Shown in pieces: positions 25,626 through 27,015 of a DNA stretch of 44,614 bases. The notes under the pieces were generated by a model that had not been told where the DNA came from, did not search any database, and saw only the letters and a program-made list of their open reading frames with translations. Location of the stretch: assembly GCA_001784805.1 (NCBI GenBank), contig MFSE01000018.1, positions 1-44,614 on the forward strand, read 5' to 3'. How positions within the stretch are numbered: position 1 is the first letter of the stretch; every line of letters begins with the position of its first letter. Both the position numbers and the translations under genes were made by a program. Source of the DNA: Candidatus Moranbacteria bacterium RIFOXYA12_FULL_35_19. Its GTDB lineage: Bacteria > Patescibacteriota > Minisyncoccia > Moranbacterales > UBA2206.

Positions 25626-25700
25626 TTGAATTATTTTAATTATTATGTAATTATTATACAAGTGCCCACGTAGCTCAATTGGTAGTCGCCTCTCCGGCGA

Positions 25701-25717
25701 CCCGCCGATGAGGCGGG
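25701..25717. repeat. Palindromic module (loop GATGA) inside the interrupted tRNA
   Basis: CCCGCC-GATGA-GGCGGG is identical to the copy in porA at 27512-27528. Confidence 0.85.
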
Positions 25718-25734
25718 AGAAACGGTATCACTCG

Positions 25735-25749
25735 CCCCGCACCATTTTT
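25735..25749. repeat. Inverted repeat around tRNA-Thr, left arm
   Basis: CCCCGCACCATTTTT pairs perfectly with 25851-25865 (AAAAATGGTGCGGGG). The tRNA-Thr gene lies in the loop between the arms. Confidence 0.85.
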
Positions 25750-25762
25750 CCAAATAACATAC

Positions 25763-25835
25763 GCCGTCCTAGCTCAATTGGTAGAGCAATGGTATCGTAA
25801 ATCATAGGTTATCGGTTCAAGTCCGATGGACGGCT
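25763..25835 (+). tRNA. tRNA-Thr (anticodon CGT)
   Basis: The cloverleaf is complete: acceptor GCCGTCC/GGACGGC, D-arm GCTC-AATTGGTA-GAGC, anticodon stem ATGGT/ATCAT with loop ATCGTAA (CGT at 25796-25798), T-arm ATCGG-TTCAAGT-CCGAT and discriminator T. No CCA is encoded. It shares its D-arm and the word GGTATC with the interrupted tRNA around it. Confidence 0.92.
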
Positions 25836-25850
25836 CAAATGAAAACTTCA

Positions 25851-25865
25851 AAAAATGGTGCGGGG
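25851..25865. repeat. Inverted repeat around tRNA-Thr, right arm
   Basis: This is the partner of 25735-25749. It leads directly into the T-arm of the interrupted tRNA. Confidence 0.85.
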
Positions 25866-25898
25866 TCAGTTCAATTCTGATCGTGGGCTCAATTCTTT

Positions 25899-25947
25899 TC
25901 CCTCTCTCCCTTTGGGAGAGATGTCGCGTACTCGCGACAGAGAGGGA
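25899..25947. repeat. Nested palindrome with TACT-loop module
   Basis: The outer element is CCCTCTCTCCC-TTT-GGGAGAG plus AGAGAGGGA. Inside it sits GTCGCG-TACT-CGCGAC (25923-25938), a separate perfect hairpin. A matching arrangement with a different stem lies at 26040-26090. Confidence 0.8.
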
Positions 25948-26039: not shown

Positions 26040-26090
26040 CCCTCTTCTGTCCGGAGTACCGGACATCCTCTCCCTAAGGGAGAGGAGGGA
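26040..26090. repeat. Second nested palindrome with TACT-loop module
   Basis: The outer CCCTCTTCT...CTCTCCC-TAA-GGGAGAGG element contains GTCCGG-AGTA-CCGGAC (26049-26064). On the other strand this is GTCCGG-TACT-CCGGAC: the loop is the same as at 25923-25938 and the stem bases have changed in a compensating way. Confidence 0.8.
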
Positions 26091-26106: not shown

Positions 26107-27015
26107 TTATTCACACAAATTCGCAATCCTAGCGAATTCTTCATTGACTAATTTCTGAATTTCTTCTAAATGAGGTTTATTTTCTTCTTTAAAGAGATGC
26201 TTAAAACGGCCTTGGGTTTTCAAAAATTCCGTGACGGGAGTTATTTTCTTTGGTTCGAAGCTTAATTTATGTTCACCATTTTCAATTTCATATAATGGCC
26301 AAAAATTTGTTTCCGTCGCTAACTTTCCTACATTCACATATTGTGAAGTTGGAAATTTCCAATTATTAGTACAAGGTGAAAAAACCAAAAGGAAACTTGG
26401 CCCGTCAGTTTCCAGAGCTTTCTTAGCTTTCTTTTTTAGATCAGCTAAATAGGCGACATTAGATTGAGCCAAATACCCAATGCGATGAGCATTAACAATC
26501 TCCATCAAATTTTTGCGCGTCTCGATTTTTCCAAAAGATTCTTTTCCGGTTGGCGTTGTTTCTGTGAAAGCGCCGTAGGGCGTCGCGGATGATCTCTGAT
26601 TGCCCGTGTTCATATACCCGCCGTTGTCATAACAAACATACAGAAAATTATGTCCGCGCTCCAGCGCTCCTGACAAGCTTTGCAAACCAATATCATATGT
26701 TCCACCATCTCCGCCAAAAGCCACAAATTTTATCTTTTTATTTTTAGAAATCTTGCCTTTCTTTTTCAAGGCTTCATAAGCTCTCTCCACTCCAGAAATC
26801 GTGGCCGCCGCATTTTCAAAAGCATTGTGAATGTAGGGCGCTTTCCAAGCTGAATATGGATAAAGCGTCGAAGTCACCTCCAAACACCCTGTCGCATTGG
26901 CAATAACCACATCAGTTTTTAGTTCCCCCAAAACCGCCCGCACAATCGCCGGAAACCCACACCCCGCGCAAGCCGAGTGTCCTGCCGAATAATATTTTGT
27001 TAGTTCTTTGTTCAT
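26107..27015 (-). CDS. porB: 2-oxoacid:ferredoxin oxidoreductase, beta subunit (PorB-like)
   Basis: This is the thiamine-diphosphate-binding subunit of pyruvate (or 2-oxoacid):ferredoxin oxidoreductase. It makes acyl-CoA, CO2 and reduced ferredoxin. Of 302 residues, the cluster-ligand Cys pair is in CAGCGFPAI and the ThDP motif is GDGGTYDIG...NGGYMNTGNQRS. The NTGNQRS segment and length fit pyruvate-type PorB. It is the last gene of porC-porD-porA-porB, all minus strand, each separated by a repeat spacer. Confidence 0.93.
   Translation of the reverse strand: MNKELTKYYSAGHSACAGCGFPAIVRAVLGELKTDVVIANATGCLEVTSTLYPYSAWKAPYIHNAFENAAATISGVERAYEALKKKGKISKNKKIKFVAFGGDGGTYDIGLQSLSGALERGHNFLYVCYDNGGYMNTGNQRSSATPYGAFTETTPTGKESFGKIETRKNLMEIVNAHRIGYLAQSNVAYLADLKKKAKKALETDGPSFLLVFSPCTNNWKFPTSQYVNVGKLATETNFWPLYEIENGEHKLSFEPKKITPVTEFLKTQGRFKHLFKEENKPHLEEIQKLVNEEFARIANLCE

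Follow-up and report, generated by a model that had tools for sequence, protein, structure and literature searches.

Introduction

Integrative elements found at tRNA genes are driven by an integrase, and they restore one end of the gene that they enter by means of a sequence that they carry. Phage T4 contains free-standing GIY-YIG nuclease genes, the seg genes, and in particular SegB, which lies between tRNA-Arg and tRNA-Ile (PMC2988022). The mobile ORFs of Glomus mitochondria bring replacement gene ends to atp6, atp9, cox2 and nad3 (PMC3630166). The GC clusters of yeast mitochondria, like other double-hairpin elements, are short mobile GC-rich palindromes with short direct repeats at their insertion sites (PMC4478555). 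Finally, the rRNA genes of the CPR contain insertion sequences and introns, the introns being mainly of the LAGLIDADG type and GIY-YIG ORFs sparse (PMC11270868).

Here we describe a locus in the tiny genome of Candidatus Moranbacteria bacterium RIFOXYA12_FULL_35_19 (genome G000) at which one tRNA-Thr gene lies within the remains of another. The window is the whole stretch that we analyzed, 44,614 nucleotides of contig MFSE01000018.1 read on the forward strand. A first-pass annotation of these letters had noticed a complete tRNA-Thr inside an interrupted tRNA. Beyond this, we found the same nesting, bounded by the same terminal repeat, for many isoacceptors.

Results

One tRNA-Thr gene within the remains of another

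The nested arrangement is real, and the parts of the locus are the following.

25664-25684, + strand: 5′ half of the outer gene, very probably a displaced tRNA-Thr(CGT) (acceptor GCCCACG, TA, D-stem GCTC, D-loop as far as GGTA)
25664-25670, + strand: 5′ strand of the outer acceptor, GCCCACG, with its partner CGTGGGC at 25882-25888
25685-25716, + strand: double-hairpin insert GTCGCCTCTCCGGCGAC CCGCCGATGAGGCGG in the outer D-loop, after GGTA
25717-25729, + strand: probable remnant of the outer D-stem 3′ strand and 5′ anticodon arm, GAGAAACGGTATC, assigned by comparison with GAGCAACGGTATCG of genome G016
25735-25749, + strand: left terminal inverted repeat of the tRNA-carrying element, CCCCGCACCATTTTT
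25763-25836, + strand: complete inner tRNA-Thr(CGT) (ARAGORN; Rfam RF00005, 64.3 bits)
25851-25865, + strand: right terminal inverted repeat, AAAAATGGTGCGGGG
25866-25891, + strand: 3′ half of the outer gene, very probably the same displaced tRNA-Thr(CGT) (T-arm, acceptor CGTGGGC, TCA; variable loop and 3′ anticodon strand missing)
26107-27015, − strand: pyruvate:ferredoxin oxidoreductase beta-like gene (Pfam PF02775), the conserved neighbor

The two terminal repeats form a perfect 15-bp inverted pair around the inner gene, which is the sole content of the approximately 130 bp inserted between the outer halves. The inner and outer acceptors differ (GCCGTCC versus GCCCACG). This cassette contains no integrase gene, and we rejected an integrase-driven element at a tRNA gene as a candidate, the cassette holding the inner tRNA alone. 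It has no GIY-YIG ORF of its own either, which counts against the explanation that we prefer below. The nested strand folds with an energy of −91.3 kcal/mol, versus a shuffle mean of −62.4 kcal/mol (z −7.0), a difference that the intact inner tRNA and the GC-rich hairpins explain to a large extent. A second inverted repeat pair, CTCTCCCTTTGGGAGAG, occupies 25904-25920 and 26068-26084, past the nested tRNA but before the oxidoreductase gene is reached.

The outer acceptor stem is paired and the outer T-arm still pairs, as the first-pass annotation had it; the D-loop, which it took to be intact, is interrupted by the double hairpin. This insert consists of two GC-rich hairpins, each complementary to the other, and the same motif is found in tRNA remnants elsewhere in the genus and family (contigs C10 and C31 of this genome; G003, G002 and G007). 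Hairpins, the 15-bp repeat and the tRNA-Thr(CGT) do occupy the middle of the outer gene, as proposed, but this gene has suffered more than an interruption, being deprived of the variable loop and of the 3′ anticodon strand. Part of it was deleted by the insertion, which was not a simple clean event, a point against our preferred explanation.

Could the outer gene nevertheless be functional, either through an unusual intron spliced from the RNA or as the two halves of a split tRNA? Its paired acceptor stem and T-arm could be taken in this sense, and in two other genomes, G016 and G027, removal of the inserts leaves a complete outer gene, which ARAGORN calls as a tRNA-Thr(CGT). In the window, on the other hand, ARAGORN calls no tRNA when both inserts are removed and the outer halves are joined, the 3′ anticodon strand and variable loop being missing. 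A scan of the window with Rfam at gathering thresholds yields three tRNAs only, with no group I or other intron, and ARAGORN reports no tmRNA there. The outer halves in other genomes are truncated further or struck by additional hairpins, and an intact tRNA with the same anticodon is present. We regard a functional outer gene as very improbable, and the intron-like, permuted, split or tRNA-like RNAs suggested at first are unsupported. The other suggestion made at the time, a pseudogene produced by palindrome insertion, was right.

The outer halves as a displaced native gene

The 5′ half is identical at 20 of 21 positions to the intact tRNA-Thr(CGT) found at the same locus in the order-level relative G039, and the 3′ half at 24 of its 26 nt, a similarity that, judged from the alignments, exceeds chance. 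The G039 gene has the very acceptor of the outer gene, GCCCACG/CGTGGGC. Furthermore, over the 40 nt 5′ of its outer half the window hardly differs from G004 and G005 upstream of their intact tRNA-Thr(CGT). Because of the G039 match, this upstream match and the neighbor of the locus, we read the outer halves as a displaced tRNA-Thr(CGT) that very probably still marks the native position of the gene; the reading as a displaced remnant is strongly supported. The paired acceptor stem, for which selection or recency had been suggested, probably reflects a recent displacement and a shared ancestor, given the acceptor of G039, rather than demonstrated selection.

We found 41 tRNA genes in the genome, with each anticodon present once except for three Met, and the inner gene is the sole intact tRNA-Thr(CGT) among them. 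The first-pass annotation had raised the question whether the genome otherwise lacks the outer tRNA species; it does not, the species being tRNA-Thr(CGT) itself, supplied by the inner gene. This gene probably provides the tRNA-Thr(CGT) function, and would be expressed, probably, from the native upstream region.

Occupied and empty sites in relatives

The oxidoreductase beta-like gene adjoins tRNA-Thr(CGT) in the nine relatives examined and in G039, and because this neighbor is conserved we took the locus to be orthologous. Only an intact gene is present in G004 and G005, of the same genus, and in G029 and G039. A 5′ remnant, a hairpin and a complete gene follow one another in G002, and likewise in G001 and G006, which were placed at the locus by the resemblance of their downstream region to the window. 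A complete gene with a 3′ remnant is found in G028 and G052, and a nested gene in the window, G016, G022 and G027. We consider it likely, and the best explanation of these states, that a mobile element has replaced the gene serially.

The tRNA-Thr(TGT) gene is intact in G004 and G006, and split, with matching flanks and halves, in G001 of the same genus, where the halves enclose another tRNA-Thr(TGT) within the arms CCCCGCACCAACTT/AAGTTGGTGCGGGG. G004 and G006 thus hold the empty site of this cassette. The derived junction, TTTTGCGCCAG...TAAAT, is common to G001, G025, the Moranbacteria contig L108 and G039, and this shared sequence points to one event that would have spread rather than to independent accidents.

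Nine of the 41 tRNAs of the genome have a fragment of their own adjacent to them, above the 99% control level. Other cases can be seen by inspection of individual loci. A tRNA-Glu(CTC) lies within tRNA-Glu halves on contig C23 (17743-17814; L296), the third repeat-bounded cassette of this genome, with a slightly decayed left arm. On contig C10 (33598-33701; L029) a tRNA-Pro(GGG) lies within tRNA-Pro halves and between the same repeats as in the window; upstream are an older 10-nt 5′ fragment and a double hairpin, apparently making three generations. In two old tRNA-Gln copies (C7, 48698-48757, in this genome, and L196 on contig C11 of G001) the anticodon arm is exactly swapped for a GC-rich hairpin, and both adjoin an intact tRNA-Gln and a GIY-YIG ORF.

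A terminal repeat common to many tRNA cassettes

The ends of the element have the consensus CCCCGCACYAA...TTRGTGCGGGG. We scanned genome contigs for CCCCGCACYA...TRGTGCGGGG with the arms 81-141 nt apart and obtained at least 116 stretches, mostly from Patescibacteria among the matches listed. Among the same matches, ARAGORN finds an enclosed tRNA in 41 of 125 pairs (Arg, Leu, Gly, Met, Val, Ala, Glu, Thr, Asp, Pro and Ile) and none in the other 84, some of which, from the GC-rich genomes of Streptomyces, Mycobacterium and Nocardia, appear to be fortuitous. Five matches on viral contigs have no tRNA inside.

When the scan, the window and the relatives are put together, at least 45 repeat-bounded tRNA cassettes are known, mostly from Patescibacteria (CPR). 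Their isotypes were compared by aligning the flanks to reference tRNAs, since automatic joining of the flanks often misnamed the anticodon, the junction bases being altered; the intron mode of ARAGORN was not used for isotypes, as it gave misleading calls (Phe or Arg, for example) at nested loci. The outer flanks best match the isotype of the inner tRNA in 37 of the 45 cassettes, against a mean of 4.7 and a maximum of 14 in 10,000 shuffles, and a tRNA carried as cargo almost always lies within a broken tRNA of its own isotype. Position 9 of the arms, left free in the search pattern, covaries: it is C.G in 34 of the 45 cassettes, T.A in 10 and T.G in one. Three-deep nests are found for tRNA-Gly(CCC) in L086 and for tRNA-Leu(CAG) in L135. 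The same tRNA-Met cassette is present in L080 and L180, whose contigs are labeled Omnitrophota and Falkowbacteria and are perhaps mis-binned, unless the cassette was recently transferred.

Such an element is carried by 10 of 380 genomes of the phylum, a lower bound because the search pattern is exact, and most of these elements contain a tRNA. We take this phylum to be Patescibacteria, since several of its genomes recur in the contig scan, with identical sequence and coordinates, under the names Doudnabacteria and Uhrbacteria. A reversed control pattern has no match in the 380 genomes. This control bears on the suspicion that the arrangement is an artefact of assembly or chance, for which one could invoke a draft genome of 32 contigs and the fact that repeats break assemblies, two copies of the G003 element described below being at contig ends. 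The same architecture, however, is repeated for many tRNAs across numerous genomes that were assembled independently, and we judge an artefact or chance extremely improbable.

That the repeat is the end of a mobile element is well supported and, in our view, very likely. As in miniature inverted-repeat elements, the terminal inverted repeats are conserved at many places, an autonomous relative with the same ends exists, in G003 only, and empty sites are found in close relatives for the G003 element and for the tRNA-Thr(TGT) cassette. A local tandem duplication of the tRNA gene with template switching, and no mobile element, could be argued from cases such as L112, where the outer tRNA-Arg hardly differs from the inner one, or G001, G002 and G006, where the full tRNA-Thr(CGT) begins with the same 15 nt as the 5′ remnant. 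It is improbable: the 10-bp terminal motif recurs across isotypes, in distant Patescibacteria and around cargo other than tRNA, the inner and outer tRNAs are often clearly different, as are the two acceptors of the window, and sites free of the element exist.

Non-coding and nuclease cargo

Three kinds of cargo are found between the repeats: tRNA genes, non-coding filler and, in G003, a GIY-YIG nuclease ORF. The non-coding cargo, of approximately 100-140 nt, is also found in intergenic DNA. Repeat-bounded non-coding inserts of 101-137 nt are present in what the flanks identify as RNase P RNA (L168), 16S rRNA (L150) and 23S rRNA (L079, L146), and these four resemble rRNA intervening sequences. 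Direct repeats of 4 bp lie at the junctions of 16 of the 70 non-tRNA copies whose arms are good, against a mean of 1.8 and a maximum of 8 under the null (n = 2,000). They are found at only one of 37 tRNA copies, and this lack of a clean target duplication counts against our preferred explanation.

The G003 element is 291 bp long and contains a GIY-YIG ORF of 84 codons between the arms CCCCGCACTAACTTTTGC/GCAAAAGTTAGTGCGGGG. A nearly identical sequence occurs at two further places, both of which run into contig ends. The six remaining genomes of the genus all have the joined flanks of the element without interruption, and thus represent empty sites, with approximately 4 nt extra at the junction. 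It also counts against our preferred explanation that the exact repeat family is linked to a GIY-YIG ORF in this one genome only.

GIY-YIG ORFs and tRNA genes

All seven genomes of the genus have matches to PF01541, 6-13 each with UvrC included. Of the 47 small GIY-YIG ORFs examined in the genus, 18 have a tRNA no more than 250 bp away, versus 3.3% expected, for which p is 3e-15 if independence is assumed, orthologous loci not being independent; in this genome taken by itself, 4 of the 9 solitary GIY-YIG ORFs adjoin a tRNA. Several of these ORFs separate the broken and the intact copy of one tRNA: Pro (C31), Gln (C7) and Ser (C10) in this genome, Gln in G007 (C33) and Tyr in G006 (C15). Other GIY-YIG ORFs form units of approximately 290-300 bp with perfect or near-perfect inverted repeats of their own, starting with CCCC or similar; one is on contig C21 of this genome (repeat ATCCCCCCTCACTTTATTTTA), and similar units occur in other genera. 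The best PDB match of the proteins is UPF0213, SLX1 being matched as well.

Two loci are of a different kind. At L026 (G007, contig C10) a double hairpin lies at the 3′ end of a gene that looks alaS-like by eye and is followed by a diverged second copy of this 3′ end, a pattern of gene-end replacement, here in a protein gene. At L027 (G002, contig C44) an ORF that looks LAGLIDADG-like by eye lies between tRNA-Thr(TGT) and tRNA-Tyr.

The element could also be mobile and yet be moved by an unrelated enzyme, of the host or of a mobile element, the GIY-YIG ORFs being passengers or fellow invaders of tRNA genes. Indeed, the 4-bp target duplications resemble transposition and not classical homing, most copies, that of the window included, are devoid of an ORF, and many of the tRNA-adjacent GIY-YIG ORFs have other hairpins. 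Against this, the repeat of G003 bounds a GIY-YIG ORF alone, at more than one place, and several other GIY-YIG ORFs have perfect terminal repeats of their own. On balance, an unrelated mover seems rather unlikely to us.

Discussion

We hold with good confidence, as the best explanation of the whole, that a palindrome-ended mobile element replaces host tRNA genes of the same isoacceptor and is probably moved by GIY-YIG nucleases. At the locus of the window, such an element with a complete tRNA-Thr(CGT) would have inserted into the resident tRNA-Thr(CGT), leaving two dead halves, and the inner copy would have taken over. GIY-YIG nucleases from autonomous copies may cut the target DNA, and the break could be filled from a copy of the element, either by homing-like repair at the tRNA homology or by a transposition-like insertion. 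Since nearly every tRNA gene is present in a single copy, only the insertions carrying a matching tRNA would survive. The match of isotypes could alternatively arise from homing, the outer halves then serving the elements for recombination, a route that the shared junctions favor for tRNA-Thr(TGT). To the nuclease as the mover of the element, we would give about an even chance. We suggest more tentatively still that the GIY-YIG elements of approximately 290 bp in Patescibacteria may have given rise to tRNA-carrying derivatives that destroy and replace the cognate essential gene and on which the host comes to depend.

If this is true, essential tRNA genes have been repeatedly replaced by mobile DNA across a large bacterial radiation, in contrast with the usual view of tRNA genes as vertically inherited markers that change slowly, or as sites that passively receive integrations. 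Replacement would explain both tRNA pseudogenes and a sudden change of acceptor stem at a fixed locus. Such tRNA halves should not be annotated as split or intron-bearing tRNAs.

How does this arrangement compare with those already described? Like the seg genes of phage T4, the genes considered here are small free-standing GIY-YIG genes beside tRNAs, in a neighborhood that is inherited together (PMC2988022). The Patescibacteria elements differ in being chromosomal, in having terminal inverted repeats, in lying within the tRNA gene and in bringing a complete replacement of the same isoacceptor; many copies, moreover, are without the nuclease. The likeness to the mobile ORFs of Glomus is that an endonuclease ORF breaks an essential gene, a foreign piece restores the function and the old piece stays in place (PMC3630166), but there a part of a protein gene is replaced, giving a hybrid, whereas in Patescibacteria a whole tRNA gene with palindromic ends lies inside the old one. 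Gene cargo is not reported for the GC clusters of yeast (PMC4478555), whereas the palindromes of Patescibacteria enclose tRNAs or a nuclease ORF. The insertions in CPR rRNA genes concern the same radiation, invade structured RNA genes and include GIY-YIG ORFs (PMC11270868); the main text of that study contains none of the terms ‘tRNA’, ‘inverted repeat’ or ‘palindrom’. The integrative elements of tRNA genes also insert into a tRNA gene and restore its function by their cargo, but here a full second gene is nested, the original is left broken and no integrase is seen.

We found no description of nested tRNA cassettes in the open-licence literature, and the arrangement in which a tRNA gene is broken and a spare supplied seems to be undescribed so far. 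Its parts have known relatives, and we place the whole with the mobile elements that make good the damage they cause; none of the four cited papers describes the delivery of a complete tRNA into its own counterpart. Should the nuclease step be proven, the arrangement could form a categorically new class. This could be a natural break-and-replace selfish DNA with a nuclease of approximately 85 residues and, if our reading is true, the natural counterpart of the synthetic cleave-and-rescue gene drives, driving a serial turnover of tRNA genes.
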